From an uncultured bacterium (GTDB lineage Bacteria > Cyanobacteriota > Vampirovibrionia > Gastranaerophilales > Gastranaerophilaceae): a DNA stretch of 33,635 bases. The notes below the pieces were generated by a model, which was given only the letters and a program-made list of their open reading frames with translations, did not search any database and was not told the origin of the DNA. The stretch spans positions 1 through 33,635 of the forward strand of contig CASDVD010000075.1 in the NCBI GenBank assembly GCA_949284155.1, read 5' to 3'. Position 1 is the first letter of the stretch, and the number at the start of each line of letters is the position of its first letter. This document shows positions 4,087 to 32,205 of this stretch, in pieces. Made by a program: the position numbers and the translations under genes.

Positions 4087-4293
4087 TCACTTTTTAAATC
4101 TATATGACTCCAGAAGTCCGATATGAGCAGCAGTAAATAATACACCCAAAAGACCGGGAATTCTGTGAGATTTTTTAAGCTTGGCAGCAGCATAACTAAC
4201 CCCGACAGATGCCGCAGCCGCATAGCCGGTAATTTTCACATAATTCGGACGTTTGCTTTGTATACCCCCGGAAATATTTCTTACTTTCATCAT
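4087..4293 (-). CDS. Small membrane protein with MKVRN leader, 68 aa
   Basis: An unrecognised small protein. The leader MKVRNISGGIQSKRPNY is followed by two hydrophobic stretches (about residues 19-37 and 45-62) and a basic end (YRFKK), so it is probably a membrane hairpin. The leader closely resembles that of the GH77-like protein starting at 11502 (MKVRNIQSGINFGRS). Two ATGs are adjacent; GGA lies about 8 nt before the first (4293), while comparison with the other leaders favours the second (4290). It lies 19 bp downstream of the AsmA-like gene on the same strand and is probably co-transcribed with it. Confidence 0.7.
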   Translation of the reverse strand: MMKVRNISGGIQSKRPNYVKITGYAAAASVGVSYAAAKLKKSHRIPGLLGVLFTAAHIGLLESYRFKK

Positions 4294-4312
4294 TATTTTT
4301 TCCGATAAACCG

Positions 4313-7084: not shown

Positions 7085-7137
7085 AACTATCAAACTCTCA
7101 TCAAACCTATTCTCAAAGATTTATAAAAAACAATAAA

Positions 7138-7167
7138 ATTATAGCATAATATAAATCATTATTTGAA
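7138..7167 (-). promoter_or_regulatory. Promoter of the AsmA-like gene
   Basis: On the minus strand, TTCAAA (7162-7167) and an extended -10 TGCTATAAT (7138-7146) are 18 bp apart. This implies a 5' leader of roughly 45-50 nt before the ATG at 7084. Confidence 0.55.
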
Positions 7168-7617
7168 CTAAACAGCCGCTTTTACAACAGCTTTTTTTAC
7201 ATAAGTTTTTTCATTAATACTTATACACGGCATATGAGCATCTTCCGGAGTAAAGATTAAAAACATACCTTTTGATGCGTTGAGAAAACTGCCTTTTCCT
7301 TCTAAAAATTCAATGTCATCAGACTCATTATAATCTGTGAGTTTTGTACAATTCGAAATATTCGTATAGCCGAGTTTTTCTTCTCCGCTGATAATATACT
7401 GTATATCTATATATTTTTTATGAGCTTCAAATTTTCCTTCCGATTCGGGTTTTGTGTAATAATCCTGAACACTGATAAATATTTCATCTTTGCTGATTTC
7501 GTATTTTCCGTTTTCCATTGATTCAAGATTTGCATTCCGGATATATTCCAGACCTTTCTTTATTCTTTCGCCAAGACCATAATAAAATTTTGCATTTTCA
7601 ATTTTATCTATTATCAT
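7168..7617 (-). CDS. YhcH/YjgK/YiaL (EbgC-like) family protein
   Basis: A 149-aa protein of the DUF386 cupin-like family that includes YhcH, YiaL and the EbgC subunit. Family hallmarks are FEAHKKYIDIQYIISGEE, with its conserved histidine, and the later FLIFTPEDAHMP, which supplies further metal-ligand-type residues. Members are linked to sugar or sialic-acid catabolism (anomerase-like roles), but no sugar catabolic genes sit next to it, so the substrate is unknown. The start is well defined by GGAGG 8 nt upstream. It is divergent from the RNA methyltransferase gene. Confidence 0.87.
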   Translation of the reverse strand: MIIDKIENAKFYYGLGERIKKGLEYIRNANLESMENGKYEISKDEIFISVQDYYTKPESEGKFEAHKKYIDIQYIISGEEKLGYTNISNCTKLTDYNESDDIEFLEGKGSFLNASKGMFLIFTPEDAHMPCISINEKTYVKKAVVKAAV

Positions 7618-7676
7618 TTCTGCCTCCGTTTATACTTATTAATTATTATCTATCAAAAATTTTTAACGCATCAGCA

Positions 7677-7685
7677 TGTTATAAT
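7677..7685 (+). promoter_or_regulatory. Extended -10 promoter of the SpoU-family methyltransferase gene
   Basis: TGTTATAAT (TGnTATAAT form) lies 30 bp before the ATG at 7716. No recognisable -35 box is present at 16-18 bp. Confidence 0.5.
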
Positions 7686-7715
7686 TAAAAAAAATGAATA
7701 AAAGCAGATAAAATA

Positions 7716-8474
7716 ATGACTGAAATAACAAGTCTTTCAAATCAACAAATAAAAGAGGCTGCAAAACTGCAGCAAAAAAAATTCAGACTTCAATCGGGAC
7801 TTTTCCTCCTTGAAGGCTATAAAGCTATTCATGAAGCGTTTAATTCCGGAATAGAAATAAAAACCGTATACACAGAAACAAAACATGCAAAAAAATTTGA
7901 TTTCATAAAAGAAAAAATAGTAACAGTCTCCGAGCAGGTACTCAAAAAACTTGCGACAACAGAAAGCGCACCTGAAGCAGCAGCTGTCGGCGTACAGAAA
8001 AAATATACTGTTGAAGAAATACAAACACTAAAAAAAATTGTGCTTTTAGAAAATATAAAAGATGCGGGGAATCTGGGAACAATCATCCGCTCGGCCGCTG
8101 CTTTCGGAATCGATGCGATTGTAACGGCTAAAGATACCGCTGATATTTATAACCCCAAAGTTGTCAGAGCCGCTGTCGGAGCACTTTTTAAAATCCCTGT
8201 GGTTAAAATATACGATTTGCCTGAATTCAGAAAAAAATTTTACAGGCACAAATTCATTGCAACAGTAGTAAATTATCCGAATTCAAAAAATCCCTCTTCA
8301 ATAAACTACAACGAGCCGTTTGTGCTTTTATTCGGCTCGGAAGCCGACGGCTTAACCGATGAGGCTGTCAATCTTTCAGATATTAAGACCACCATTCCTA
8401 TTAGCACCAGGACGGAATCTTTGAATTTATCTGCCGCTGCTTCAATTATGTTCTATATTTGCGCTAATTATTAA
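7716..8474 (+). CDS. SpoU/TrmH-family RNA 2'-O-methyltransferase (RlmB-like)
   Basis: A 252-aa SPOUT methyltransferase. An N-terminal substrate-binding domain with KKFRLQSGLFLLEGYKAIHEA (residues 21-41) precedes the trefoil-knot catalytic domain. The three SpoU motifs are intact: motif 1 NIKDAGNLGTIIRSA (113-127), motif 2 FGSEADGL (206-213) and motif 3 IPISTRTESLNLSAAAS. These proteins 2'-O-methylate a ribose in rRNA or tRNA using S-adenosylmethionine. The subgroup resembles the TrmH/RlmB proteins annotated in Firmicutes and Cyanobacteria; the exact target nucleotide cannot be told from sequence alone. The ribosome binding site is weak (GCAGAT). Confidence 0.9.
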   Translation: MTEITSLSNQQIKEAAKLQQKKFRLQSGLFLLEGYKAIHEAFNSGIEIKTVYTETKHAKKFDFIKEKIVTVSEQVLKKLATTESAPEAAAVGVQKKYTVEEIQTLKKIVLLENIKDAGNLGTIIRSAAAFGIDAIVTAKDTADIYNPKVVRAAVGALFKIPVVKIYDLPEFRKKFYRHKFIATVVNYPNSKNPSSINYNEPFVLLFGSEADGLTDEAVNLSDIKTTIPISTRTESLNLSAAASIMFYICANY

Positions 8475-8843: not shown

Positions 8844-8849
8844 TATAAT
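8844..8849 (+). promoter_or_regulatory. Probable -10 box of the cobO promoter
   Basis: A perfect TATAAT lies 41 bp before the cobO start codon and has only a weak -35 region. If used, transcription starts near 8856 and leaves a leader of about 35 nt, too short for a cobalamin riboswitch. Confidence 0.45.
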
Positions 8850-8889
8850 ACAGATAGGAAATTATTTTCTATCAATCGGAGGAAGAATC

Positions 8890-9504: not shown

Positions 9505-9528
9505 ATTTTGTATTTTCCGCATTATAAA

Positions 9529-11502
9529 TTAATTTTTGTCCTTTTTAGGGAAGAATTTTATTACAGCAGCAATGCCAACCAAAATACCGGCAAAAACAAA
9601 TGCCGCTTTTGTTTTTGTATTGCCTGCCGTTATTGGTTTCCCTTTTCCTTTCAGATTGGCTGCAGCGTCTTGTGCCGGTTCTTTTTCATTTAGTATATTT
9701 TTGTATTTCACAATTTTTGAATAAAGTTCAGGATTTGCTTCATTCAATCCTTTTGCGACAAAAACCTTTTCTAAAGCATCCATTATGTTCAGACCAAATC
9801 CCTCATTAACAGCTGCCATATACGCCTGTTGAAAATTTGCCGGGATTTTATATCTGTAAGCAACATTAGTACTAAATGTCTGCTGGTCAAATCTTTCAGA
9901 CCGGCCAAAGACATCCATGTAAAAAAAGTAATTATTTTTTGCGCTCATTATTTCGGCAAATTTTGCTTTAGCAAATTGAACAGGTTCTTTCAATATTCCT
10001 TTTTTGATATGCAAGATATCGGAAAGAGGTTGTATTTGCTCAAATTTATGAAATTCAGCGACGGTTTTTCCGTTGCGTTTTACATTGTCCGCAGCACAAT
10101 TCGCTATTTGACGCAGAGGCTGAGGGTCATGATTTCCGACACCTATAATAAATCTGTCCGGATTCCACTTTAACTCTTTGGTAAATGCATGATTAGATCC
10201 CCAGCCTTCATGCATATATGTTGTACCGAGTACTTTTGTTCTTTTTTCAACACATTCTCTGAGCTTGTTATCCTTAAACAGCGCAAAATCAGACGGGTCA
10301 GCCTCAAACTCATGGCTCAACAACCCTGTATCAAAATCGTTGCCTTTAACCTCTTTAACGTAATTGTCAATTAAATCTAAAATTTTTCCGCCAAATTCCG
10401 GCTTCATAACATGCCTGCCGTCACGTGAAATAAGTTTCGGCTGCACATAATTCCAAGATGCATCGAACCTCAATGTATCATAGCGTTTTGCAAAAAATTG
10501 AACTTTCTCCTTCAGAACTTTAGAAATTTCACTATTCGGATCAGTTAATTTCTCAAAATCCGGAGCAATAAACTGCCAGCTGACTGAGCCCATGAAGTAA
10601 TTTCTGTTAAACGCCTTTGGATGGCGCCATATCAAATCCGGCGAAAATTTTAGCGGACAATCGCCGACAAGTTTTAAACCTTTTTTATTCAGCATCTTGC
10701 GTGCTTTTTGAAGATGTTCATCCGCCAAAAACTGTTTAAACTTGTGAAAATCGGCAAATTCCTTGCTTTCATTTTTAAGCTTTTGCAGCCGTTCAGCTTT
10801 GCCGGGCGGATTAAAATCGGGATTGTATAAATTTCTGTCCAGTTCATCCGGCCATTTTTCATAGTTTCTGTCATTGTGAAGCTCGGCCAAATAATCATAA
10901 AGCGCTTTATCTTCAAGTCTTTCTTTGTTTTCAGCCACATACTTTTTATAGCGCAATTTAACGGGATTTTCCTCCGTCAGCCTTTTGAAACGCTCATGGG
11001 CCTTTTTTAACGCCCTCTCATTGGGACTGTTAGAATCAACTACATTTTCATAATTTACCAGCTTATCATTCAAAGAGCCCGAATTATAACGAACAACACT
11101 GTCAAATTCATCTTTTTTAAGAATTGCTGCATATTCAGGTGTAGTTAGAAGATATGTATTTATAACATGATTTCCCAAAGCGGTAGAATCACCGCCATAG
11201 GCTATATAAGTCCCCTTAACCCCGTACGTCTGATTTTGAGGAAGAACTTTCACTTCATTAATCCCCAGATATGTCTTCATCATGTCGAAGAATTTCATAG
11301 ATTCTTCAGATGTAAGATTACCGACACCGGTATTTTTTTCAGGAGACTGCGGAAGACATGCATCATGCACTATCAATATGGAACGCCCTGTTTGACCCGC
11401 AAGCTTTTTAGCCTCATCCCTGACCGAGGTAAATTCCTTAATTTCCTCATTTTGAAGAGACCTGCCAAAATTTATACCGCTTTGGATATTTCTAACTTTC
11501 AT
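9529..11502 (-). CDS. Divergent GH77 (MalQ-like) 4-alpha-glucanotransferase with C-terminal membrane tail
   Basis: A 657-aa protein. The core resembles glycoside hydrolase family 77 amylomaltase: a segment FHKFKQFLADEHL, then GLKLVGDCPLKFSPDLIW (about 275-292), matching the family IGDxPIFV..DSADVW region. RYDTLRFDASW keeps the nucleophile aspartate (D347). LLSHEFEAD keeps an acid/base glutamate candidate (E398), and GVGNHDPQP keeps the transition-state HD (H458, D459). MalQ rearranges alpha-1,4-glucans. Two features are unusual: an MKVRNIQSGINFGRS leader shared with other genes here, and a C-terminal hydrophobic helix (about 633-651) ending PKKDKN, suggesting a tail anchor. I chose the ATG at 11502 (GAGAG 9 nt upstream) over the GTG at 11508. 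Activity is unproven because the motifs are divergent. Confidence 0.78.
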   Translation of the reverse strand: MKVRNIQSGINFGRSLQNEEIKEFTSVRDEAKKLAGQTGRSILIVHDACLPQSPEKNTGVGNLTSEESMKFFDMMKTYLGINEVKVLPQNQTYGVKGTYIAYGGDSTALGNHVINTYLLTTPEYAAILKKDEFDSVVRYNSGSLNDKLVNYENVVDSNSPNERALKKAHERFKRLTEENPVKLRYKKYVAENKERLEDKALYDYLAELHNDRNYEKWPDELDRNLYNPDFNPPGKAERLQKLKNESKEFADFHKFKQFLADEHLQKARKMLNKKGLKLVGDCPLKFSPDLIWRHPKAFNRNYFMGSVSWQFIAPDFEKLTDPNSEISKVLKEKVQFFAKRYDTLRFDASWNYVQPKLISRDGRHVMKPEFGGKILDLIDNYVKEVKGNDFDTGLLSHEFEADPSDFALFKDNKLRECVEKRTKVLGTTYMHEGWGSNHAFTKELKWNPDRFIIGVGNHDPQPLRQIANCAADNVKRNGKTVAEFHKFEQIQPLSDILHIKKGILKEPVQFAKAKFAEIMSAKNNYFFYMDVFGRSERFDQQTFSTNVAYRYKIPANFQQAYMAAVNEGFGLNIMDALEKVFVAKGLNEANPELYSKIVKYKNILNEKEPAQDAAANLKGKGKPITAGNTKTKAAFVFAGILVGIAAVIKFFPKKDKN

Positions 11503-14089: not shown

Positions 14090-14419
14090 TTAAATAATTA
14101 TATCTATATTTTCACCTAAATCTTTTTTAATTTTATCCAATACTGTCTGCACATTTTCCGGATTATCAGAAAAAGCAGAATTAAGTTCATCTGTTGCACT
14201 TTTTAATTTGGGATACTTACCTGTTATTTTCTCACCGATAATTTGCGCATGATACTTAAATCCTCTATTGCCGACTATCGGCTTTTCACAAAAGGTATTC
14301 AGCACCTTCTTTATTCCGTTCATTCCGCCGGAATATAGCACTTTTTGAGTAGTAACACCTAAAACATCTAATGTATTCAGTTGAGCACTGAACGATGGTG
14401 AATAACTTCTAGTTTTCAT
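14090..14419 (-). CDS. Small protein with PSFSA leader, coupled to the deiminase-like gene, 109 aa
   Basis: Not recognised. The start MKTRSYSPSFSAQLN carries a leader of the PSFKG kind seen in several genes here. The rest is soluble and helical (LKSATDELNSAF, then VQTVLDKIKKDLGENIDIII). I chose the ATG at 14419 because it overlaps the stop of the upstream gene as ATGA, a classic translational-coupling arrangement; an earlier in-frame start at 14458 lies inside that gene. Coupling suggests that it acts with the deiminase-fold protein, perhaps as a partner; that is inference. It is convergent with rfbA, 3 bp away. Confidence 0.7.
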   Translation of the reverse strand: MKTRSYSPSFSAQLNTLDVLGVTTQKVLYSGGMNGIKKVLNTFCEKPIVGNRGFKYHAQIIGEKITGKYPKLKSATDELNSAFSDNPENVQTVLDKIKKDLGENIDIII

Positions 14420-15747
14420 TTTATTTTCACTTTCGTTGGAATTTCCGCACACATACAATGAATACCGCCCTGAAATTCAGGCAAAAATTCTTTAGCTATC
14501 GCATCATTTTCACCCGATACAAAGTAGACTTTTTCCTCTTTTACATAAGGTTTTATACTTTCAAGAAATTTTTTCTTCATGCTGAAGCCGATTTTTTTCT
14601 CAATTTCATCGGTAATAAATAATCCTTTATCAAATAAAGAATTATTAGTAATATAAACTAATTCATCATTATTATTTTTGAAAACTACAGCATTTAAATA
14701 ATTATGAAGCTGCTTGAGAAAAAAATCCTTCTGCCTTCCGGGAGAATGGTTTTCATATATTTCATAAATCCTTCCCGGAACTCTTATAGTTTCAAAACCG
14801 GCCTCATTCAAAACTTTCTCAACTTCAGGCGCTTTCGGATACGGGTTAAGCGACATAATTTTTTGTATTTGTTTCATGCCCATACCCAAAGCCATAAAAA
14901 CTTTTTGATATTTCAAAGAGTCTATGCTCGATTGAATTTTATACATTTTTTCACAAACTTTATCAAAGCCTTCGGATAATGCTGATACAGTAAGTTCATC
15001 ATCGGCAACAAGCACACGTTTTTTATCCAAAGGACGAATGAACATGTCGAGGTGATAATCCGCCTGAGGAATCACATGTACTTTATCAACCTCAAACATC
15101 TTTTTTATTTTATCTATGCTGAATTTTTTCAGCTCATCTTCCCCTATCAGAAGTTCATCTTTCGCCTTTTCAGTTTGCACAAGAAAAAAATTTCCGCCCG
15201 GTATATGAGTCCGGCGTCTTAATTTTTCAAGAATTCCAGAGTACTCTTTAATATCTTTATCTATTAGATTTTTTTGAATTAATTTCCGCTCTTGTGTAAG
15301 CTCATTAACACCGTATACAAATTCAACATTTCCTAATTTGCACTTTGGAAGATTAACCATAAAAGACAAAAAATTTTGCAAATCTTCTATATTAGTCCCG
15401 CTTCTTACATCTTGCTGAGTTTTATCAAAATTAAGATTAAAAAACTTTTTTACAACTTCCGTTTCTCCAAATTCCTCAAAACATTGAAGTTTATTTTTGA
15501 CAACAGTCCAAAAATCCTGCGCCCAGCACCCTTTTAATATAGGCTGCTCACCGACACTGTTTTTGCTTATTGTAATACCGGCTTCATTCCTGTTCAAAAT
15601 ATACAGGGGCAAATTTTCTTTTTTTGTTATTTCAAGCATTTCTCCGGCTATACCGCAATAATTTGAATTCATTAGAATCCCTCCGAGTTTGCGTGCATCA
15701 TAGCCTTTGAATGAAGGTTTTGCTAAATTAAATGAATCTACTCTCAT
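14416..15747 (-). CDS. Deiminase/amidinotransferase-fold enzyme (agmatine-deiminase/PAD-like) with PSFKG leader
   Basis: A 443-aa protein whose motifs fit the guanidino-modifying enzyme fold. GCWAQDFW (D78) resembles the WARD substrate motif, and IPGGNFFLV (184-186) the conserved GGN. YHLDMF (H232, D234) resembles the catalytic HxDM, and GGIHCM near the C-terminus (C431) resembles the GGIHC nucleophile loop of agmatine deiminase. All three catalytic residue types are present, so activity on arginine, agmatine or a peptidyl arginine is possible. Sequence similarity outside the motifs is low and the substrate is unknown. The N-terminus MRVDSFNLAKPSFKG is the shared leader, not a signal peptide. 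AGAG lies 5 nt before the ATG. It overlaps the next gene by 4 nt. Confidence 0.75.
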   Translation of the reverse strand: MRVDSFNLAKPSFKGYDARKLGGILMNSNYCGIAGEMLEITKKENLPLYILNRNEAGITISKNSVGEQPILKGCWAQDFWTVVKNKLQCFEEFGETEVVKKFFNLNFDKTQQDVRSGTNIEDLQNFLSFMVNLPKCKLGNVEFVYGVNELTQERKLIQKNLIDKDIKEYSGILEKLRRRTHIPGGNFFLVQTEKAKDELLIGEDELKKFSIDKIKKMFEVDKVHVIPQADYHLDMFIRPLDKKRVLVADDELTVSALSEGFDKVCEKMYKIQSSIDSLKYQKVFMALGMGMKQIQKIMSLNPYPKAPEVEKVLNEAGFETIRVPGRIYEIYENHSPGRQKDFFLKQLHNYLNAVVFKNNNDELVYITNNSLFDKGLFITDEIEKKIGFSMKKKFLESIKPYVKEEKVYFVSGENDAIAKEFLPEFQGGIHCMCAEIPTKVKIK

Positions 15748-15821: not shown

Positions 15822-16487
15822 ATGAAAGTAGAAAATAATATATCAAAAATCATTTCACAACCCGTCAGCTATCAAAAGCCCAAAATAAACTCTCAGGAAA
15901 ATTTGAATACAAAAACAGAACCTCTTGATAAAGAAATCAAATATGCAGCAGGATTCCTCGGCGGCTGCGCCTTTGCAGGGATTATAATGTACGGCGGACG
16001 AAACAATTTTGCAAAACTTATTACAAAAATCAAAAATAAACCTCCAAAAACTAATGAAAACTTCCCGAGAAAAACAGATGACATTTTGCAGCAGGCTGAA
16101 GAAGTTTTAAAAGATAAGTTGAAAAACAAAACGCCGCTTGATATGGCAGATAATATGACACTTGAAGAAATAATTTACTACAAAAATTTCGTAAAAGAAG
16201 ATTTGCTTGAAAAATTAGACTATGCAATTGTATATAAATATCTGCATAAAAAATGTGATGCGGATTTATACATCAAAACAATGGACAGTTATATAAATAA
16301 TAAGATAAATCAAAAAAAATGTTTATCATCAGGAACATTTGACGCTATGAAAGTACTTATTAAAGCATACGTTAAAACAAACCAAAAAGAAAAAGCCGTT
16401 GATATATGCGAACGATTTATTACAAATAACAATATGGATTTTCGGGTTGACAAAATAAAGCAATTTTTAACAGATTTAACCTCATAA
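15822..16487 (+). CDS. One-TM hypothetical protein with MKVEN leader, 221 aa
   Basis: Not recognised. The N-terminus MKVENNISKI is followed by a hydrophilic stretch, a single glycine/alanine-rich membrane segment (about 41-58) and a lysine-rich linker. The helical C-terminal domain (about 95-221) has a repeat-like pattern (AIVYKYLHKKCDADLYIKTM, MKVLIKAYVKTNQKEKAVDI) reminiscent of TPR-type helical hairpins. I chose the ATG at 15822; a TTG at 15816 is also in frame. No ribosome binding site is visible. The 3' end overlaps the convergent peptidase-like gene by 6 bp. Confidence 0.65.
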   Translation: MKVENNISKIISQPVSYQKPKINSQENLNTKTEPLDKEIKYAAGFLGGCAFAGIIMYGGRNNFAKLITKIKNKPPKTNENFPRKTDDILQQAEEVLKDKLKNKTPLDMADNMTLEEIIYYKNFVKEDLLEKLDYAIVYKYLHKKCDADLYIKTMDSYINNKINQKKCLSSGTFDAMKVLIKAYVKTNQKEKAVDICERFITNNNMDFRVDKIKQFLTDLTS

Positions 16488-17330
16488 TAATTTTGTTCCC
16501 GCAAGTTCCATTATGTAATCAAAATATTTGTCAGTAATTTTATCACCTTCGCTATATGCCTCAATCTCAAGCAAATTGTTTCTGTAAGCCTTATATTGCT
16601 CATCAGTGTAATCACCTGACAAATGTACATAATCCCTTTTGGCCTGAACATATTTCTGTGCTTTTTTACCTTGTTCACTGTTATAAGGAATTAAACCGTA
16701 TTCTTTAACGGCAAGTCTCTCTTTTTCTCTCAATTTCTCATATATAAGAGGAAACTCGGATTTAAAAGCAGACACACTGCCATAACCTGATTCTACTAAC
16801 GCATCAGCGCCAAGCCCCTCTGTCCTTATAATATCCATGCTCTGCACAAAATGCTTTATTTCATGCTTAATTGTATTGATAATACTCACCTTTGTACGGG
16901 ATTCAGCATTATTTATCATAATCTCATCCACCATTGCAAACCAGCTGCCCACAGTATTGCTCTCTTTAGATTCAAACTTCAACTGCGGTCTGAGTTTTGC
17001 ATATCCGGAATCGTTTATAAATTCATCAAATACAGCAATAGCAAATTCTTTTTTATTCTTTGTATTTTGAATTTTTGAAAAAGTATTTATCTCCTTTAAT
17101 GTAAACCCCTTATTCAAAAGTTTTTGTACAGCCTCGATTTCTTTTTGCGTAAGATATTTGCAATACTCCGAAGATTTTTCAGCAAGTTCTTTTTGCAGCA
17201 CATTTACTGCTTTTGATATACTTCTTTGTCCCGCTGAAAGCACAAGAACGCCTCCGAGCACACAAGCCGGTGTAATGTAATTTTTATACCTGTTTATTGT
17301 TGTATCGCTTTTTACATTTCTTACCTGCAT
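16482..17330 (-). CDS. Putative membrane-anchored zinc peptidase (HExxH) with MQVRN leader
   Basis: A 282-aa protein. The leader MQVRNVKSDTTINRYKNY is followed by one membrane segment (about 19-34). The later part carries HEIKH (H156, E157, H160), the HExxH signature of zinc metallopeptidases, inside a helix (NTIKHEIKHFVQSMD). A downstream LEIEAYSEGD (E255/E257) could provide the third zinc ligand of a gluzincin-type site. I do not recognise a named family, so substrate and activity are inferred from motifs only. No ribosome site is evident before the ATG. It overlaps the convergent gene by 6 bp and is followed by no obvious terminator. Confidence 0.65.
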   Translation of the reverse strand: MQVRNVKSDTTINRYKNYITPACVLGGVLVLSAGQRSISKAVNVLQKELAEKSSEYCKYLTQKEIEAVQKLLNKGFTLKEINTFSKIQNTKNKKEFAIAVFDEFINDSGYAKLRPQLKFESKESNTVGSWFAMVDEIMINNAESRTKVSIINTIKHEIKHFVQSMDIIRTEGLGADALVESGYGSVSAFKSEFPLIYEKLREKERLAVKEYGLIPYNSEQGKKAQKYVQAKRDYVHLSGDYTDEQYKAYRNNLLEIEAYSEGDKITDKYFDYIMELAGTKLL

Positions 17331-17782: not shown

Positions 17783-18409
17783 ATGAAAGTATTACTTTTA
17801 AACGGAAGTTCTAACCCAAAAGGCTGCACCTACACAGCTTTATGCGAAATTGCATCAGTTCTGAATCAGGAAGGAATAGAAACTGAAATATTCCAATCAG
17901 GAAACAAACCAATAAGAGATTGTATCGGCTGCGGTGCCTGTAAAAAAACCGAGAATTCTTGTGTCTTTGACGATGATTTAGTCAACAGCTTTATTGCAAA
18001 AGCAAAAGAAGCCGACGGGTTTATCTTCGGCTCTCCGGTCTATTATGCCCATCCGTCGGGAAGAATTCTTTCAATTCTGGACAGGGCATTTTTTGCAGGA
18101 AAAAAGAATTTTGAATTTAAACCCGCAGCTGCAATCGTATCCGCAAGACGTGCCGGCACCACTGCCTCTATAGACGCAATAACAAAACATCTCACAATCA
18201 ACAACATGCCCGTTGTTTCATCAAACTACTGGAATATGGTGCACGGAAACACTCCTGAAGAAGTAAAACAAGACAAAGAAGGTCTTCAAATATTGAGAAT
18301 TCTCGGCAAAAATATGGCATGGCTTTTAAAATCAATAGAAGCAGGTAAACACGCCGGTATCCAAATCCCTCAAAATGAAGAAAAAATTTGGACAAATTTT
18401 ATAAGATAA
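17783..18409 (+). CDS. Flavodoxin-family NAD(P)H reductase, iron-sulfur-flavoprotein-like
   Basis: A 208-aa flavodoxin-like-fold protein. The FMN phosphate-binding loop is LNGSSNPKGCTYTAL (7-20), and FGSPVYYAHPSGRILSILDR follows in the usual flavin-contact position. A compact cysteine group C47, C50, C53 and C60 (CIGCGACKK and later C) matches the CX2CX2CX4-7C motif of iron-sulfur flavoproteins (Isf). A [4Fe-4S] cluster is therefore plausible, although many flavodoxin-family reductases keep such cysteines without proof of a cluster. A strong GGAAGGAG precedes the ATG. It is monocistronic, with its own promoter and terminator. Confidence 0.88.
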   Translation: MKVLLLNGSSNPKGCTYTALCEIASVLNQEGIETEIFQSGNKPIRDCIGCGACKKTENSCVFDDDLVNSFIAKAKEADGFIFGSPVYYAHPSGRILSILDRAFFAGKKNFEFKPAAAIVSARRAGTTASIDAITKHLTINNMPVVSSNYWNMVHGNTPEEVKQDKEGLQILRILGKNMAWLLKSIEAGKHAGIQIPQNEEKIWTNFIR

Positions 18410-20914: not shown

Positions 20915-22990
20915 TTATAAATTAATTTTTACACCTACCATAACACTTGAATTATTTCTGGTTTTGTTTAGTGCGTCTGATTCTTTTGTATATCCCACAG
21001 AAAGTGCGGTCTTTTCATTCAATTTTGCACCTACAGATACAGAAAACTTTTTATTATTTTCAGTAAGTTGATTAAAGCCTCCGACAGAAAGATTCTGACG
21101 GACTATTGATACATTGGAGTTTCCAAAAATAGTCACATCTGTGCCGGCTGGTCTATATTCAGCAGCAACGCCTCCTGATATTCCACTATCTTTTGCAGGC
21201 TGAGTAATCACTGCATGTGCATTTACCCCGGCCATTATTTCAAAATTATCAGATAAATCATATTTTACAGAAGATGCGGCATTAAGTTTAATACCCGGTT
21301 GGATTTTTGGCTTTTGTTCACCGCTTGTCAACCCTAAGTCCGCAACTAATCCGGTATTTATAATATTATTCAATGTAAACTTTCCAACAGTATTATTCAT
21401 TCCAATACCATCTTCAAGTACAAGTCTTGCATCACCAAAAATACCACCGGCATCATGAATGTCATCTGTTTTAGCTGCGATAGAAAAACCACCCTCCAAC
21501 GTAGCTTTTCCTATATTAGTAATTTCAGTTTTATCTGTTTGAATAAGATTTGTTTTCTTTCCCAAAGCTCCTTTAAAAAAAGCTGACACATATTTTTGAT
21601 TAAGTTCAGTCATTTTTAGAGGTAATTTGACCTTGCCTTTAGTTTCTACTTCTACATATTTTCTGCCTGCCAAATCTTCCGGTCTTGGTACGTATTCTAT
21701 TCCCAAAAAAGTCTTATATAAATCTTTCATTCTTTCTATTTCATCAGGAGTCATTCCTTCTTGGATATGGTAATTTTCGGGATTTTTCATACCTTGAGCA
21801 AACTGCTCGTCAACTTCTTTTTGAATTTGTTGTTTTGTCTGCTCATTATAGGAAGCAACTAACCCTCTTGCTGTACCTTCTGTATATGAGACAATACCTT
21901 TTGTTTCAAAAAACACCTCAGAGTCATCATTTTTCTTATTTATGCCCTTATACTCCGATTTTAATCCAATACTTTGGGAATTATGAAATATTGAAGATTC
22001 ATTTGTATTCTTGTATTGCAAAGAAAGAGCAGCTTCTCTGGGATTCATTTCTTCATTTTTAACTATTTGCACACCAGCATCAGCCGTAACATTCCCAACC
22101 GATGAAATTTCAACCGAGCCGTTTATAGATGACTTTTTATTAATATCAAAATCAAAAGGAGTTTCACTATTATAATCACGTTTATCCATTTCATTCCCGA
22201 AAGCAGCTTCATCTTTCATCGCAAATTCCTGATAAGAATGATTTTCATCTATAATTGTTATATAGCCGCAGCTTTCGAGTTTGCCGCTTTTATAGACTTC
22301 CCTGATTGCATCTTTAATATTTGCGGCATCTATAACAGTAGCTTCAGAATAGTTATTAAATACATATTTTCCATCACTGCGTTGATATAAAAGAGTTGTA
22401 TGATTGCTGCCATCATTAGTACCACAGAGCAAAACAGCATTAATGCCACAATCATTAAGAGTTTTCATCAAAAATTCATGAATAGTTGTGCAAATCAAAC
22501 CGCTTAACTCTTCACCGGTTTCTGTATTTAAAATTTTATCAAGCACTTCAGTTTGAGAAGCCCCTATGTCTTTATGAGTTACTTCACTGTCATAAGAATC
22601 TTGAAGGTCGCCTAATATTGAAGATACGGTATTTTGTAGAAGCTCCTGATTATCTTTATTATTTAGAATATATGACTTTAAATATTCATAGCAATTTTCA
22701 GAATTATGTCCTTGATTTTTATAGTTCTTTAATTGGCTTACAGTAAGATTTTCAGGCTTAGCGTCTTTACGCCATTCAAGCTCTTCATTATTATCTAAAT
22801 AACGACGTTTTACTACGGAATAGTCATAAGTCGTATTACCAGGTTTATATTCTCCGTTTTTTATTAATGATTCATTTTTGAAAATCAAATCAGCATTCAC
22901 GTCAAAATGAATACTGTCTTTTTGAATATCCGTTGGCATTTCAGAATCGACATGTGCATCGCTGCCAATCTTTTTACTTTTATTTTCCAT
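20915..22990 (-). CDS. Large protein with transglutaminase/papain-like Cys-His-Asn part and beta-rich tail, 691 aa
   Basis: Not recognised as a named family. The N-terminal third (about 140-240) contains CTTIHEFLMKTLNDCGINA (C167), then DGSNHTTLLYQ (H197) and DGKYVFNNYSEA (N212/N213). This Cys...His...Asn order and spacing resemble transglutaminase-like or papain-fold cysteine enzymes. The second half is rich in alternating polar/hydrophobic strands (GGFSIAAKTDD, FSVSVGAKLNEKTALSVGY) and ends VMVGVKINL, like outer-membrane or adhesin beta structures. There is no signal peptide, so any export route is unclear. No strong ribosome site precedes the ATG. It is convergent with the ArsR gene. Confidence 0.7.
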   Translation of the reverse strand: MENKSKKIGSDAHVDSEMPTDIQKDSIHFDVNADLIFKNESLIKNGEYKPGNTTYDYSVVKRRYLDNNEELEWRKDAKPENLTVSQLKNYKNQGHNSENCYEYLKSYILNNKDNQELLQNTVSSILGDLQDSYDSEVTHKDIGASQTEVLDKILNTETGEELSGLICTTIHEFLMKTLNDCGINAVLLCGTNDGSNHTTLLYQRSDGKYVFNNYSEATVIDAANIKDAIREVYKSGKLESCGYITIIDENHSYQEFAMKDEAAFGNEMDKRDYNSETPFDFDINKKSSINGSVEISSVGNVTADAGVQIVKNEEMNPREAALSLQYKNTNESSIFHNSQSIGLKSEYKGINKKNDDSEVFFETKGIVSYTEGTARGLVASYNEQTKQQIQKEVDEQFAQGMKNPENYHIQEGMTPDEIERMKDLYKTFLGIEYVPRPEDLAGRKYVEVETKGKVKLPLKMTELNQKYVSAFFKGALGKKTNLIQTDKTEITNIGKATLEGGFSIAAKTDDIHDAGGIFGDARLVLEDGIGMNNTVGKFTLNNIINTGLVADLGLTSGEQKPKIQPGIKLNAASSVKYDLSDNFEIMAGVNAHAVITQPAKDSGISGGVAAEYRPAGTDVTIFGNSNVSIVRQNLSVGGFNQLTENNKKFSVSVGAKLNEKTALSVGYTKESDALNKTRNNSSVMVGVKINL

Positions 22991-24092: not shown

Positions 24093-24863
24093 ATGAATAA
24101 AAAGTTTGCCATTAATAACTTTATAGGGATTTTATTTGTATTTTTTATAATATTTATTACAGCCGGCGGAGCGGAGGCAGCAGTAGCATTCCCGACAATA
24201 ACAGTGGGAATGGGAGACGCAAACACACCGCAGGAATTTACGCAGGGTGTACAAATACTTGTTTTGCTCACGATATTAACTCTGGCACCGAGTATTTTTA
24301 TCATGACAACAGCCTTTATCCGGATAATAATTGTTCTGGCGCTAACCCGTCAGGCAATAGGTATGGCATCTTTACCGCCGAATCAGGTTCTGGCGGGTCT
24401 GGCTTTAATATTAACATTTTTCGTAATGGCACCCACTTTCAACAAAATTAACGAAACAGCCATACAGCCTTATATGAACAACCAGATTACCCAGCAGGCA
24501 GCGCTGGAACGTGGTATTAAGCCAATGAGAGAATTCATGATAAAACACACGGAAGAGAAGGAGCTGGGATTATTTTTGAGTATGGCCAAAATTGAAAAGC
24601 CAAAAAATTGGGAAGATGTACCGACTTATACATTGATTCCGGCATTTGTTATTACAGAATTGAAAACGGCTTTTAAAATAGGTTTCATCATATTCCTTCC
24701 CTTTCTGGTAATCGATATCGTTGTAGCAAGTATTCTTGTATCAATGGGTATGCTTTTCTTGCCTCCGGCAACGGTTGCAACACCGTTCAAACTTATCCTT
24801 TTTGTAATGATTGACGGATGGTATCTGATTACCAAAACATTGCTTGAAGGTTTCATAACATAA
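24093..24863 (+). CDS. fliP: Flagellar type III export protein FliP
   Basis: FliP is the core of the export gate in the inner membrane. It forms a pentamer with FliQ and FliR that moves flagellar subunits. The 256-aa protein begins with a cleavable N-terminal hydrophobic leader (about residues 8-27, ending GGAEAA), typical of FliP. The conserved segments follow: LTLAPSIFIMTTAFIRIIIVL, ALTRQAIGMASLPPNQVL, YTLIPAFVITELKTAFKIGF, then FLPFLVIDIVVASILVSMGM. AGGA lies about 7 nt before the ATG. It heads a tight operon with fliQ, fliR and flhB. Confidence 0.96.
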   Translation: MNKKFAINNFIGILFVFFIIFITAGGAEAAVAFPTITVGMGDANTPQEFTQGVQILVLLTILTLAPSIFIMTTAFIRIIIVLALTRQAIGMASLPPNQVLAGLALILTFFVMAPTFNKINETAIQPYMNNQITQQAALERGIKPMREFMIKHTEEKELGLFLSMAKIEKPKNWEDVPTYTLIPAFVITELKTAFKIGFIIFLPFLVIDIVVASILVSMGMLFLPPATVATPFKLILFVMIDGWYLITKTLLEGFIT

Positions 24864-24893
24864 TAATTAAAAAATTTAAGGAAAATAAAATAA

Positions 24894-25163
24894 ATGGAAG
24901 ATACACAGTTTTTAACAATAATACAAAATGTTTTTATATTAACACTATTAATGGCCACACCTATACTGGTTATCAGCATGATAGTAGGTCTTGTAATAAG
25001 CATATTTCAGGCCGTTACACAAATTCAGGAAGCAACATTGACTTTCGTTCCCAAAATTCTCATAGGAATACTGACTCTCATAGTGCTTATGCCCTGGATG
25101 CTGAGTACTTTTATCAGCAGAACCAATGAATTATTCGGCTATATAGAAACAATAATTCATTAG
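24894..25163 (+). CDS. fliQ: Flagellar export protein FliQ
   Basis: An 89-aa protein with two membrane helices, as expected for FliQ, an inner-membrane subunit of the export gate. TPILVISMIVGLVISIFQA and TQIQEATLTFVPKI are the characteristic family segments. AAGGAAAA precedes the ATG. It lies 30 bp after fliP and 11 bp before fliR. Confidence 0.95.
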   Translation: MEDTQFLTIIQNVFILTLLMATPILVISMIVGLVISIFQAVTQIQEATLTFVPKILIGILTLIVLMPWMLSTFISRTNELFGYIETIIH

Positions 25164-25174
25164 GCGGAGGTTTG

Positions 25175-25960
25175 ATGCAGCCTGATTTATTAATGCTATT
25201 ATCACCTAAAAATATTGTCATTTTCGCAATAATATTTACACGTATCAGCGGAATGATTATGTCTGCACCTTTGTTTTCAACTTTTCCGATACCGATACAG
25301 GTAAAAATCTGGCTCACGGCGCTGGTATCTTTCATTTTATTCCCGATAATATCGTCAACACTGCCTTTTTCCGTACCTGCCTCATTTCCGGAGTTGAGCA
25401 TATATTTGCTTCGTGAATTCGGTGTGGGATTTATGATAGGATTCATTGCAAATCTTATATTTGCAGCTGTTCAAATAGGCGGAGAATTCATAAGTATTCA
25501 AATAGGTATTTCAATGAGCCAGATATTAAACCCTGAAACCGGACTCAGCACGCCGGTGCTTGCACAGATATATATAATTTTTGTTGCCTTTGTTTTTATG
25601 GCCTTAAATGCTCACCAGTGGCTTTTTGCAGCAGTATACAGGAGCTTTAAGACATTCCCTCCGGGATTGGATTTTGTTTTTACCGGTTCAGTTGTTGAAC
25701 ATATAGTAAGACTTTCCGGAGAAATGTTCGCTATTGCCATAAGTATGATTTTACCTATTTTCTGTGTTATGTTTGTTGCTGAGGTATTAATGGGCTTTAT
25801 GTCAAAAATGATGCCTCAGATGAATATATTCATGGTGGCAATACCGCTCAAAGTCTATCTGGGTTTGATTCTTATGTTAATGTTTATTTCACCGACAGCG
25901 ACTTATCTGGCGAACACGATTGAATCCTACCTGAAAGGTATTGTAGAAATGATGATATGA
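25175..25960 (+). CDS. fliR: Flagellar export protein FliR
   Basis: A 261-aa, five- to six-helix inner-membrane subunit of the flagellar export gate. Typical segments are IFTRISGMIMSAPLFST, the LREFGVGFMIGFIANLIFAAV stretch (a fraction of the FliR family core) and GLSTPVLAQIYIIFVAFVF. I chose the ATG at 25175, which has GGAGG 4 nt upstream; the in-frame TTG at 25172 overlaps the ribosome-site spacing. The stop lies 7 bp before flhB, so the two are probably coupled. Confidence 0.94.
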   Translation: MQPDLLMLLSPKNIVIFAIIFTRISGMIMSAPLFSTFPIPIQVKIWLTALVSFILFPIISSTLPFSVPASFPELSIYLLREFGVGFMIGFIANLIFAAVQIGGEFISIQIGISMSQILNPETGLSTPVLAQIYIIFVAFVFMALNAHQWLFAAVYRSFKTFPPGLDFVFTGSVVEHIVRLSGEMFAIAISMILPIFCVMFVAEVLMGFMSKMMPQMNIFMVAIPLKVYLGLILMLMFISPTATYLANTIESYLKGIVEMMI

Positions 25961-25967
25961 GGAAAGA

Positions 25968-27059
25968 ATGAGCGCAGCGGAAAGGACAGAAGAAGCCACC
26001 CCCAAGCGGCGGGAGGATGAGCGTAAAAAAGGTAATATAGCAAGAAGTCAGGATATGACCTCTTCTCTTTCTATCAGCGCAGCAGTCGGACTGCTGATTA
26101 TGCTTTCTTCTTTAATTTTGCACAAAATCAAATCACTGATGGAATATGCTTTCACGCATATTCATCCTGAGGAAATTGAGATAAATGATGTCATTGCACT
26201 ATTCAGTCCATATGCAAAAGCATCTGGAGAAATTTTGCTGCCGTTTCTTTTAGGGTTGATGATTATTACGGCAATTGCCGTACGTGTTCAGGTGGGGCCG
26301 CTTTTTGCACTTGAAAAAATCAGACCCAAAATGGATAGATTCACAATGGGCCAGATTATGCAAAGTTTGAAAAGGATGTTTAACCCGTTTGAGCCTAAAA
26401 ACCTCGTCGAAATAGCAAAATCTCTGGCGAAAATGGCCATTGTAGGGTACAGCGGATATTCAGTTTTGCAGTCAAGAAAAGATGAACTGTACGGACTGGT
26501 CGGTGTTGATATAAATACAGCCCTCGCTGTTTTAGGCAGCATTTTGCTAAATATGACAATCAATATGTGTGTAGCTATGCTTATTCTGGGTTTTATTGAC
26601 AAAAAATACCAGAATTACGAATACGAAAAATCAATAAAAATGACCAAACAAGAGGTCAAAGACGAATATAAAAATATTGAAGGGGATCCGACCGTTAAAG
26701 CAAAAATCCGCTCTGTCCAGATGCAATTTATGAAACAAAAAATGATGAGTGCAGTTCCTCAGGCTGATGTTGTGGTCGCAAACCCTACACACTTTTCGGT
26801 TGCAATAAAATACGATAAAACTAAGGCGCCTGCACCGATTGTAGTCGCAAAAGGCGTAGATTACATGGCCTTTAAAATAAGAGAAATCGCCAAAGCAAAT
26901 GATGTACCTATAGTTGTTAACAAACCTCTTGCGAGAGCATTATATAAACTGGTCAAAGTAGATCAGGCAATTCCTGCGGAATTGTACGTTGCAGTTGCTG
27001 AAATACTTGCATTTGTTTACAAAAAGGATAAACATCTGCATTCTTCAATTAAAGTGTAG
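25968..27059 (+). CDS. flhB: Flagellar export switch protein FlhB
   Basis: FlhB switches the export substrate from rod/hook to filament proteins. The 363-aa length is standard. The N-terminus SAAERTEEATPKRREDERKKG is the family start, four membrane helices follow, and the cytoplasmic tail holds the self-cleavage motif NPTH (N272, in VANPTHFSVAIKYD). The intact motif and normal tail (PIVVNKPLARALYK) indicate a working switch. GAGG lies 7 nt before the ATG. flhA is not adjacent: the next gene is typA after 68 bp. Confidence 0.96.
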   Translation: MSAAERTEEATPKRREDERKKGNIARSQDMTSSLSISAAVGLLIMLSSLILHKIKSLMEYAFTHIHPEEIEINDVIALFSPYAKASGEILLPFLLGLMIITAIAVRVQVGPLFALEKIRPKMDRFTMGQIMQSLKRMFNPFEPKNLVEIAKSLAKMAIVGYSGYSVLQSRKDELYGLVGVDINTALAVLGSILLNMTINMCVAMLILGFIDKKYQNYEYEKSIKMTKQEVKDEYKNIEGDPTVKAKIRSVQMQFMKQKMMSAVPQADVVVANPTHFSVAIKYDKTKAPAPIVVAKGVDYMAFKIREIAKANDVPIVVNKPLARALYKLVKVDQAIPAELYVAVAEILAFVYKKDKHLHSSIKV

Positions 27060-28915: not shown

Positions 28916-28948
28916 TATAAATTTGTTTGTAAATCTGCCTTATTCAAA

Positions 28949-30631
28949 CTAATTCAATGTTCCCAAAAAAGATGAAAAAGTCTTATTCATTGTAGAGTTA
29001 GGAATTTCCATTGAATCAAGATGCTGAACAGATTGCGCAATCTGTTTGTCCCCTCCGGCAGTCTTTTCTGCTCTGCTTTTTTCAACGCTTCTTGTTATTG
29101 CAATATTAAGTTTTGGAATACCGACACCCAGAACAACACCTGAATATACATATCCCAGAGCTTGTGCAATATTTTTATATTTTATTCGTTTGCTGACAGA
29201 GTTGAAAGCCTCTTGCAATTTTTTGTCCGAACCTGCGGATTTAACTTTATTAGCCAGAGCCTCCATCAGTTTTCCGTAAGAAAGTTTTTTACCGTTAGAA
29301 TCCAAAACATCAATGCCTGCTTCTTTCAATACAGGATAAAGAATTTCTTCATGAGACTTAACTTCTGCTTTTGTAATCCAGTTCCAGCCTTTTTTCAGCC
29401 CTTTAAGATTTTGTGCATTATATGTTTTTTCATCATAATTAATTAAAGACTTGTCCATTTTATTGGCAGCAAGCTTAGAAACAAAGCCGCCCAATATAAG
29501 CCAGTTTACAAAACCGAGAGTATCTTTTATTGTGCTTTCACGTAATTCATCTTTATTCCGTGCAGCAACCATACGGCTGAAAATTGTCGTTGCATATATC
29601 AGTTTAAATTGAGGAATAGTAGGAACCATACCTTTATATTGAAGTTTTGGCAAAAATTTCTCTTTTTCAAAAGGTGCAATGGTTCTCATCATGGCAGCGG
29701 CTATACCAGCTCCCATGGCAGTTTTCAACGCTTTAAACCCGAATGATTTATCGGGTTTTGCATCTTCATTACCGACAAAGCCCTCTTTACCTGTACGTTT
29801 TTTTGTCATATATGCATTTAACGGCTGCAAACTCATTCCGACAGCCATCGGAACCGCAAGCCCGCCCAGAGCGGTAGTAGTTTTCAACCTTTTAAGCACT
29901 TTAACAAACTCTGCATCAGTAAGTTTTGAAACATTAGCCTTGTCCAGAAACGCTTTTTTCAGTGAAAATGCGTCATTCAGTATACTTTCTAAGCTTCCTT
30001 CAACAGAATAAGCCCCGTTTGTCAGTTTTAAGTTTTCTGTTGCACCAATATCCGCAGCAATTTTGAATTTTGCTTCGTTGTATATTTTTGAAGGAATTTT
30101 ATATTTATCGGTATTTGCAGAAGAAAGAAGTTTGCTGACTTCTTCTATCGTTGATTCGCTCAGCTTTTTATACGGATTTGCTTTATCAACAGGATTATAG
30201 CCCTGAAGCTCTTTTAAAACACTTCTGTAATAATCATCAGAAGCGGCATTTTGTTCTATAAACTTTGAAAATACATCTATAGAATCATTATTGTTAAACA
30301 GCAAATGAGCTTTAACACCATTTGCTTTATTAAAAGCATGAGAAATAAGATAACCTGCGCCTAATCCCACTAAACCTGCAAATGAATGGTTTAATGTAGA
30401 GCTGAATTCTCTTGCTGCAGTTTCTACACCGGCATCAGGATTTCTTGCCGTGTCAACCACTGTCCTTGGCGTATCCATAAAAGCAACATCGACAAATACC
30501 GCTCCCAGTGCAGGATTAGTATTTAAGAAATTAAAAGCGGTTGAAAGAATTTCTGCTCCGCCTCTAAAGCTTTGTTTATGATTTTGAACTTTTCCTTTTT
30601 GTTGAATATTTGGATGTATTGCTGTTATCAT
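28949..30631 (-). CDS. Multi-TM lineage-specific protein, paralogue A, 560 aa
   Basis: Not recognised. The leader MITAIHPNIQQKGK, then QSFRGG (residues 20-25), precedes a conserved segment with PRTVVD (55-60). Later come a GKEG segment (YMTKKRTGKEG), the stretch SRMVAARNKDELRESTIKD and a C-terminal membrane-like segment (VLGVGIPKLN). At least four hydrophobic stretches are likely (about 85-100, 255-275, 305-325 and 500-520). The upstream neighbour shares the same motifs in the same order, so these are tandem paralogues. AAGGCG precedes the ATG. It lies 14 bp downstream of paralogue B and is probably co-transcribed. Confidence 0.75.
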   Translation of the reverse strand: MITAIHPNIQQKGKVQNHKQSFRGGAEILSTAFNFLNTNPALGAVFVDVAFMDTPRTVVDTARNPDAGVETAAREFSSTLNHSFAGLVGLGAGYLISHAFNKANGVKAHLLFNNNDSIDVFSKFIEQNAASDDYYRSVLKELQGYNPVDKANPYKKLSESTIEEVSKLLSSANTDKYKIPSKIYNEAKFKIAADIGATENLKLTNGAYSVEGSLESILNDAFSLKKAFLDKANVSKLTDAEFVKVLKRLKTTTALGGLAVPMAVGMSLQPLNAYMTKKRTGKEGFVGNEDAKPDKSFGFKALKTAMGAGIAAAMMRTIAPFEKEKFLPKLQYKGMVPTIPQFKLIYATTIFSRMVAARNKDELRESTIKDTLGFVNWLILGGFVSKLAANKMDKSLINYDEKTYNAQNLKGLKKGWNWITKAEVKSHEEILYPVLKEAGIDVLDSNGKKLSYGKLMEALANKVKSAGSDKKLQEAFNSVSKRIKYKNIAQALGYVYSGVVLGVGIPKLNIAITRSVEKSRAEKTAGGDKQIAQSVQHLDSMEIPNSTMNKTFSSFLGTLN

Positions 30632-30645
30632 TGTTTCGCCTTATT

Positions 30646-32205
30646 TTATATAGTCTGTTTACTTAAATTGCCTTCAGCTTCCGTAAAATTTGTTCCGAAA
30701 GCCTGGAATGCTTTTTGGGCATATACACTGTGGGGGAAAATTGTAGGATATGAATGATATCTGTTTATCGTCATTTCAAGCTCTTTTTTTCGTTTTGATT
30801 CAGTCTGCTTTCTGACATACCATGGAACAAGAATACCCAAAAGCAGCATTGAAAAGCCTAACGAACTAATTTCACACAGTGAACGGAGATTTTTAGCCTT
30901 TTTAGAAATCTGTCCTGCTTCGTCAAATGATTTCAGGTTCGTTTCTCTGGCCCAATATTTGAATCTGTCTATAATATTATTTGATTTTGGCTTATCAGAA
31001 AGATAATTGAATAAATCTGTTTTATCTTTGCTGAATTTTTTGATTAAAGAACCAACGCCCTTATTAACATAATCACCGAAGAAATACAAACTGCAAAAAG
31101 TTGCTATATCACGGAATGTAGCTTCTCTGAGCTCATTTTCATCTTCTGAAGCAAGCATTCTGCTTGCAAAAGTAGAAGTAGCTATCCAGCGGCACTGATC
31201 CATCGACGGCAGAATCTTGTTAAACTGCAAAGACGCAAGGCTCGGCTTTTCTTTTAAAGAAAGCAGCGCTACACCAACCATCAACGCAGCGGCACCAAGC
31301 TTTTGCATCCAAAAGCCCGCTTTTTCTTTTTGCGTCATTTCCTTTTTTGTATTTTGCCGAATGAAATCTTTATAAATCGGTGCGCCCTCTTTGCCCGAAG
31401 ATTTACGGGTAATCCAGCGATTTATGGACTGAACTGAAGCAGCCAGCGGTATTATTATTGCTAAACCGGTTAAACTCTTTTTGTTCGCAAATTTCACTGC
31501 CTTTTCATAAAAAGACTTTAATTTCTCAGAGTCCATTTCCTTAAAAAGTTTTCCGCAATCAACCGTATCTCTGAGGAAAGTTCTAAAATCTATATTAAAA
31601 GGCTTTTCAGAACCATGAAATCTAATATGTTCCGCACCTTTTGTATTTTCTATAAAAAGTTCATAAACTTTTTTCAGTTCTTTTTTGTCTTTTTTTCCGT
31701 GTATAATTTCTTTGACAAGCTCTCTTGAGTCATGGACATGCTGTTCGTTCACATCAACGTCTATCCATTTTTTGCCGACATTAATCTGCATATCCTTAAA
31801 TATGCCGTCAACATACTTATCAACATTATTCACCTTTGAATAACGGGTATGAAGTTCTTTCAGGCTGTACTCATTAGCCCATAAATTTGATAATCCTTTA
31901 TAATCTTTATTAAATAATTCAAAAACTTTTGCCGCACCCAAAACAAAAAATCCGGGAATCAAACAGTTCACAACAAGTCCTGATGACTCTCTTCTGAAAG
32001 TTTCAGCAGCAGCAAAACCGTTCGTTTTTGCATCAACAACGGTTCTCGGTATGATAGCTGTTGCAGCATCTATAACTGAAACACCCACCATCGGATATGT
32101 GTTACATTGCTGCAGAACCCATGTTGCAGCATCCAAAGGCCCTGCCTTAAATGATGGTGTGATTTTATTATTCAGATTTGTATTAATGCTAACTTTATCA
32201 ATCAT
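30646..32205 (-). CDS. Multi-TM lineage-specific protein, paralogue B, 519 aa
   Basis: Not recognised. After the leader (PSFKA at 17-21), the protein has PRTVVD (53-58), INRWITRKSSGKEG, and SRMLASEDENELREATFRD, in the same order and spacing as paralogue A. Hydrophobic stretches lie near 80-97, 245-260, 300-320 and a C-terminal segment LLLGILVPWYV. Sequence identity outside the motifs is low, so the duplication is old. No good ribosome site precedes the ATG at 32205. The shared motifs suggest a common fold and probably hetero-oligomer formation with A, but no function can be assigned. Confidence 0.75.
   Translation of the reverse strand: MIDKVSINTNLNNKITPSFKAGPLDAATWVLQQCNTYPMVGVSVIDAATAIIPRTVVDAKTNGFAAAETFRRESSGLVVNCLIPGFFVLGAAKVFELFNKDYKGLSNLWANEYSLKELHTRYSKVNNVDKYVDGIFKDMQINVGKKWIDVDVNEQHVHDSRELVKEIIHGKKDKKELKKVYELFIENTKGAEHIRFHGSEKPFNIDFRTFLRDTVDCGKLFKEMDSEKLKSFYEKAVKFANKKSLTGLAIIIPLAASVQSINRWITRKSSGKEGAPIYKDFIRQNTKKEMTQKEKAGFWMQKLGAAALMVGVALLSLKEKPSLASLQFNKILPSMDQCRWIATSTFASRMLASEDENELREATFRDIATFCSLYFFGDYVNKGVGSLIKKFSKDKTDLFNYLSDKPKSNNIIDRFKYWARETNLKSFDEAGQISKKAKNLRSLCEISSLGFSMLLLGILVPWYVRKQTESKRKKELEMTINRYHSYPTIFPHSVYAQKAFQAFGTNFTEAEGNLSKQTI

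Follow-up and report, generated by a model that had tools for sequence, protein, structure and literature searches.

Leader genes of the window

The window, by which we mean the whole stretch of 33,635 nucleotides analysed, contains eight genes to which an initial annotation had assigned a shared N-terminal leader, described as M-K/Q/R-V-R/D/E-N followed by a polar linker and P/N/Q-S/N-F-K/G/R-G/A. All eight starts are present (Table 1). Five show the full pattern under the fitted model described below (scores 8.4-12.0), which is Ile or Val near residue 3, an Asn/Ser-rich linker and then [P/I/V][S/N]F[G/K/T/S][G/A], whereas the other three lack the Phe motif; the proposed consensus narrows to a motif specific to Phe that follows a linker rich in Asn and poor in acidic residues. 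The five start at 11502 (GH77), 14419, 15747, 30631 (paralogue A) and 32205 (paralogue B). Since A and B are homologous (26-27% identity), these represent four body families.

Table 1. Leaders, weaker candidates and a C-terminal element in the window
Feature	Gene product	Position	Strand	Sequence or basis	Score
C-terminal hydrophobic helix and Lys-rich tail	GH77 protein 9529-11502	9532..9606	-	sequence reading
Leader	GH77 protein 9529-11502	11461..11502	-	MKVRNIQSG-INFGR	11.3
Leader	109-aa protein 14090-14419	14384..14419	-	MKTRSY-SPSFSA	9.3
Leader	443-aa protein 14416-15747	15703..15747	-	MRVDSFNLAK-PSFKG	12.0
Leader	paralogue A 28949-30631	30557..30631	-	ends QSFRGG	8.4
Leader	paralogue B 30646-32205	32140..32205	-	ends PSFKAG	10.0
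Weak candidate		4234..4290	-	MKVRNISGG start, RPNYVK; no Phe in range	unscored (no Phe)
Weak candidate		15822..15884	+	MKVENNIS start, PVSYQK; without Phe motif	3.6
Weak candidate		17277..17330	-	MQVRNVKSD start; no Phe in range

Judged by coordinates the ATG at 14419 overlaps the stop of the upstream gene, and the score of this protein was computed from that ATG, the gene caller having chosen an upstream TTG instead. The first three residues alone are unspecific: the proteins starting at 17783 (MKVLLLNG) and 32894 (MQITGG) also begin with M[KQ][VI], and an M[KRQN][IV] start is found in 167 of the 2033 proteins sampled, 44 of which score above 8.

A PDB search with the GH77 protein identified one 4-alpha-glucanotransferase. 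The body of the 443-aa protein had no Pfam, PDB-sequence or NCBIfam match, and the HExxH protein gave only sub-threshold matches to SecA and HTH domains. Predicted structures were too poor for use (mean pLDDT 34.5 for paralogue A and 33.8 for 14416-15747). A single scan of genome contigs returned one relative. The 691-aa protein encoded at 20915-22990 has no Pfam match above cut-off; its C-terminal half appears strand-like and glycine-rich by eye.

In the close relative L006, which shows 82% identity to the window in paralogue A, the linkers of A and B differ from those of the window, with an indel in the B linker. The residues M-I and the motif S-F-x-x-G are invariant in A, B and both L006 relatives, the motif in spite of only about 26% identity between A and B. 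The GH77 leader pattern is likewise kept in relatives, with variable linker length. The protein starting at 17330 has a Tyr-Lys pair at the place of the Phe motif, both in the window and in its L006 relative. A further leader-like gene (...NQSFKG) lies at L006:4444-5220, close to orthologues of genes from the window's right-hand end; the window showed no counterpart.

Frequency of the leader

Leaders were counted in a 2.24 Mb sample from six genomes of the order, the window's own and five others (403 kb of G000, 400 of G031, 348 of G070, 289 of G012, 400 of G013 and 400 of G015). Gene starts were obtained with a simple dicodon caller, resulting in 2033 proteins of at least 60 aa, among which orthologues across genomes are not independent. 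The leader model scores residues 2 and 3, the composition of the linker and the eight positions surrounding a Phe, the Phe motif being searched over residues 8-48 (median index 16). All model scores are in-sample except the held-out counts, for which each genome was scored by a model made from the other five.

In-sample, 87 of the 2033 proteins score above 8 with the full model and 89 after refitting. Held-out, 40/2033 do so, against a mean of 5.6 for shuffled sequences with the first three residues kept and 6/8422 for windows at internal Met residues, and a leader profile is thus more frequent than in shuffled controls, a comparison that the initial annotation had called for. By genome the held-out counts are 9/368 (G000), 6/387 (G031), 11/289 (G070), 8/253 (G012), 4/371 (G013) and 2/365 (G015), which means that leaders are thin in the families of the latter two, f7 and f3. 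The full model found no score above 8, and one above 6, in a small outside control of 221 proteins from unrelated bacteria (182 from Lactobacillus salivarius pMP118, 32% GC, and 39 from Escherichia coli K-12), two of which have the bare motif.

Regular expressions detected the signal less widely than the joint model. With the loose pattern F[KRTSGQA][GA] enrichment was weak or absent in the first four genomes sampled; the strict pattern was enriched in G000 (5/188 versus 0/1021 body windows) and G031 (6/362 versus 3/2151), and not in G013 (0/353) or G015 (1/328). Whole-genome counting of leaders with DNA patterns was abandoned, since the patterns were either too scarce or almost equalled by control patterns. 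The leader does exist, if in a narrower form than first described: a few percent of the lineage's proteins, with unrelated bodies, begin with a shared short polar tag centred on a Phe.

Two-part architecture and residue preferences

The Phe motif occurs at residues 7-48 in 56 of 2033 proteins and at residues 49-90 in 11 of 1926, which makes it about five times commoner near the N-terminus. It is Phe-specific: the Phe version has 56 N-terminal and 13 body matches, the Tyr version 16 and 7, with Ile/Val at residue 3 in only 2 of the 16, and the Leu and Ile versions show no N-terminal enrichment.

Ile/Val at residue 3 is found in 29 of the 56 motif-positive and 336 of the 1977 motif-negative proteins (odds ratio 5.2, p 5.6e-9). 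The motif expression had been written after inspection of the model, the seeds of which had Ile/Val at residue 3, therefore the association was recounted without seeds; with 13 seed matches removed it is 19/46 versus 333/1974 (odds ratio 3.5, p 1e-4). By genome the p-values are 0.012 (G000), 0.039 (G031), 0.084 (G070), 0.0046 (G012), 2e-5 (G013) and 0.27 (G015). For motifs at residues 61-102 the association is absent (0/13).

Composition and signal peptide figures were taken from the motif-only set, since model-chosen sets are partly selected by composition. Residues 2-25 of this set are rich in Asn (13.6% versus 6.9%) and poor in acidic residues (6.8% versus 10.8%). A hydrophobic 12-mer in the first 40 residues, as expected for the core of a Sec or Tat signal peptide, is present in 3/56 versus 341/1977 proteins, which bears out the earlier suggestion that the leader is no classical signal peptide; 3 of the 89 model-chosen proteins have a signal-peptide-like segment, in a set for which the model itself disfavours hydrophobic linkers. 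Anchoring, which had also been suggested, is not the common theme because the majority of the tagged proteins is soluble, a TM-like segment occurring in only 12 of the 56. In the 13 leaders that were located among 30 GH77 loci the motif codons vary synonymously (four codons for Gly, five for Arg), hence selection acts on the protein.

Leader proteins and their ordinary copies

Compared by blastp with the leader removed, the 50 proteins that score above 7 held-out make up 44 body families, which supports, for six genomes of the order, that the leader is attached to unrelated bodies. A Pfam scan of 92 of 93 candidates (one, crossing a stretch boundary, was omitted, and some of the 93, for instance signal-peptide proteins, are clearly false) matched 47 families, GH77 being the commonest with five members. 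Detailed scans of 40 candidates left 33 without a domain above cut-off, the other seven being a GH77 enzyme, an M16 peptidase, two glycosyltransferases (one GlgA-like), an AAA ATPase, a sigma-70 factor and a PRPP synthetase. The sigma-70 family factor, encoded at L137:7175-8191 in G012, has a strong leader (MKINFNTISFKSG).

Leader genes cluster: the next gene is also a leader gene in 20/88 cases versus 67/1880. Islands of leader proteins, mostly domainless where scanned, are seen at L131, L128 and L126 of G070 and are reminiscent of accessory effector repertoires.

Several leader-bearing enzymes are divergent extra paralogues beside ordinary copies, where this was checked. In G013 the PRPP synthetase with the leader is a second, lower-scoring copy (122 bits versus 182.7), a high-scoring copy being present by match, with starts unread, in all seven genomes searched. 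In addition to its GlgA-like protein with a leader, G012 has a GlgA of ordinary length, as found in five of seven genomes; in G013 and G007 the sole GlgA-domain protein is one divergent copy (start unread). GH77 copies in G000, G012, G013 (two) and G070 score 8.1 to 11.6, and other GH77 copies, in G070 and G015, begin directly in the enzyme (-3.1 and 1.8). The initial annotation held that housekeeping genes lack the leader; this stands for those GH77 copies and for GlgA of G031 and G015, for which the starts were read, whereas most ordinary copies were called leader-free indirectly, from frame length or match start alone.

Of 30 GH77 loci, a set that includes the window's GH77, 15 have a TM-like 19-mer within the final 75 residues. 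Several GH77 loci end in Ala.

Type III export apparatus in the order

FHIPEP was matched in all 98 genomes of the order that were searched and in full length in 97, G045 having a partial type only; two of the FHIPEP frames hold a stop. FliP is present in 97/98, with two or more copies in most flagellin-bearing genomes, and rod-domain proteins are found in 97/98, including most of the flagellin-less ones, while flagellin itself is encoded in 35. Across the class FHIPEP was found in 80/117 genomes, and not in the listed members of families f8 and f13.

The full-length FHIPEP matches form two score classes, of 858-891 bits (32 places listed) and of about 668-736 bits. A copy that we name FHIPEP2 falls in G013 below the NCBIfam cut-offs for both FlhA (677 versus 772) and SctV (580 versus 692). 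With 872.6 the other FHIPEP, which was read in G012, clears the FlhA cut-off. Two FliF copies each are present in G000, G007, G012, G013 and G015. G031 and G070, which have leaders but no flagellin, have a single FliF, located within about 3 kb of FHIPEP2. The second locus of G013 encodes an FlgE/F/G-type D1 protein, two rod-domain proteins, a transglycosylase, FliE, FliF, FliH and FHIPEP2, in addition to two proteins without match and, by position and sequence, a putative FliI-type ATPase. The order encodes a second FliP/FHIPEP/FliF set.

This second apparatus does not fit a flagellum, since flagellin is missing from 63/98 genomes. In the part of PMC3459982 available, a secretin marks non-flagellar type III secretion systems and flgB, flgC and fliE are flagellar markers; a system of that type does not fit either, given the rod-domain proteins and FliE of the G013 locus, where none of the ten scanned proteins is a secretin. 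In the window, fliP-fliQ-fliR-flhB-like genes lie in a row at 24093-27059 and, to judge from the FliP score of 265.6 bits, belong to the flagellar set rather than to the second apparatus. Open frames of about 600 aa in G053:C8, G041:C9 and G049:C3 match only the last third of FHIPEP (119-131 bits) and could be a further FlhA-like type.

A soluble FlhA-C-like protein beside GH77

There is also a third relative of FHIPEP, about 495 aa long, in which only the cytoplasmic domain of FlhA is matched (3mix, E 3.4e-26). As read in G013 it is without the membrane half and begins with a part of its own, which sets it apart from the full-length FHIPEP2; the same joining of an own N-terminal part to the FlhA cytoplasmic domain was observed at L079:13538-15019 and in other genomes. 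Nothing alike appeared among the literature matches listed, as judged by titles and abstracts.

The protein is encoded in 37 of the 38 family-f1 genomes searched (the G000 copy, a fragment at a contig end, was omitted). In 26 of the 37 a GH77 gene lies directly downstream on the same strand, the matched parts being 66-290 bp apart; one more genome has a GH77 gene 4 kb away and the other ten have none listed nearby. The GH77 match begins at query residue 2-16 in 25 of these 26 neighbours, whose starts were placed by match start rather than from the letters.

Discussion

The leader is probably an address label. We consider it a putative N-terminal, non-hydrophobic export signal for a flagellum-derived type III apparatus, with a probability of about one half. 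The acid-poor start with Ile/Val at residue 3, the retained type III gate, the FlhA-C-like gene upstream of GH77, the divergent extra copies and the chlamydial precedent discussed below speak for export, and the genomic context suggests it without proving it. According to this proposal either the gate or the soluble FlhA-C-like protein would recognise the leader, with the Phe motif as docking contact, and the leader proteins would leave the cell through the second apparatus, which is kept even where flagellin was lost. A more specific version appears rather unlikely to us as it stands: that the soluble FlhA-C-like protein is the receptor that reads the Phe tag and that dozens of unrelated proteins per genome, alpha-glucan enzymes included, leave via the flagellum-derived apparatus. 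Such a tag and receptor would, just as tentatively, amount to a novel code of protein targeting used across an entire order of gut bacteria.

The leader resembles the type III effector signals described in the sections of PMC2668754 at hand, which occupy the first 20-30 residues of unrelated bodies, have no hydrophobic core and prefer Ile as residue 3, Asn as residue 5, Ser/Gly as residue 8 and Ser as residue 9; the preferences reported above for Ile/Val-3, for Asn and against acidic residues are of this kind, and the gate components FHIPEP and FliP are nearly universal in the order. The signals described there have no fixed motif, whereas the leader has a recurring Phe motif. Three flagellins that were examined also have Ile at residue 3. 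A fixed Phe motif is, to our knowledge, new for type III signals.

A parallel for the enzymes is found in Chlamydia trachomatis, where GlgA, GlgB, GlgX, GlgP and MalQ have working type III signals in their first 20 residues, according to the portion of PMC4829429 available. The GH77 and GlgA-like leader proteins are relatives of the 4-alpha-glucanotransferase and glycogen synthase of that pathway, which likewise combines an N-terminal non-Sec signal with a type III gate. By analogy these proteins would be plausible cargo, and the alpha-glucan enzymes among the leader proteins may act outside the cytoplasm. The likeness has limits: in the chlamydial pathway the enzymes themselves are tagged, whereas here it is divergent copies beside ordinary ones, where checked, and the chlamydial case involves secretion and a host vacuole.

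Several observations fit export less well. Among the chief difficulties are G045, which has a leader on GH77 and yet no full-length FHIPEP, the leader on the sigma-70 factor of G012, which is awkward for export, and the depletion of small acidic chaperone-like neighbours beside leader genes (3/175 versus 228/3761). The flagellar gate recognises a Phe with a hydrophobic residue at +4, and in the leaders V, I, L, M or F at +4 is about as frequent as in the background (0.35 versus 0.32). Rod, hook and FlgD-like proteins that were examined have low leader scores, and in G013 the protein at the place of FliK scores 2.2 in spite of its Val-3 and LSFKA. Early flagellar subunits, as far as described in the part of PMC8983047 at hand, resemble the leader in combining a small hydrophobic N-terminal signal with a second downstream site and differ from it in their gate motif. 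Our literature search gave no account of the leader or the apparatus in this lineage among the matches listed.

The main rival of export is an intracellular sorting tag, a short linear motif by which proteins would dock onto a hub such as a polar scaffold, a condensate or a membrane site without any exit; we hold this possible, at well below even odds. Leaders on proteins such as a sigma factor, an AAA ATPase and one PRPP synthetase copy speak for it, as does the TM-like helix near the C-terminus of half the GH77 loci, and an Asn-rich segment with a conserved Phe would seem typical of docking motifs, but no candidate hub was found, Ile/Val-3 and the acid-poor start match published export signals and the clustering of leader genes is what might be expected of accessory export repertoires. 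That the leader has no function as protein, and only reflects AT-rich start codons that aid translation, is very improbable, despite the many Asn and Ile codons of the leaders and the low GC content of the genomes (30-39% in called genes): synonymous codons vary in GH77 leaders, Phe far exceeds Tyr, Leu and Ile in the motif, Shine-Dalgarno sequences are alike (14/29 versus 1043/1977) and the AT-rich pMP118 gives 0/182.

Bacterial microcompartments usually recruit cargo by short terminal tags, so that a shell-directed tag could be imagined, but a BMC shell domain was detected in none of seven genomes, in a search that did give matches in E. coli and Synechococcus among 14 control genomes, and this reading is very improbable. 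Export through another machine, either type IV pilus/T2SS-like or a type IV secretion system, with the type III set as a flagellar remnant, is improbable too: T2SS cargo needs Sec or Tat signals, which are rare here (3/56), and a remnant would hardly retain FliP, full-length FHIPEP and rod genes in about 97/98 genomes. In its favour, the available part of PMC5877343 reports partial flagellar gene sets along with type IV pili in Gastranaerophilales, and that of PMC4451040 proposes a type IV secretion system in Vampirovibrio.

If the leader is indeed a type III export signal, the exported proteins of this gut lineage, most of it uncultured, could be listed with a single short profile, the 'partial flagellum' retained by its non-motile members would be explained, and there would be a type III signal whose contact residue can be mapped. 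If the tag acts inside the cell instead, it would be a sorting code for which we know of no name. Under either reading the leader is directly testable.
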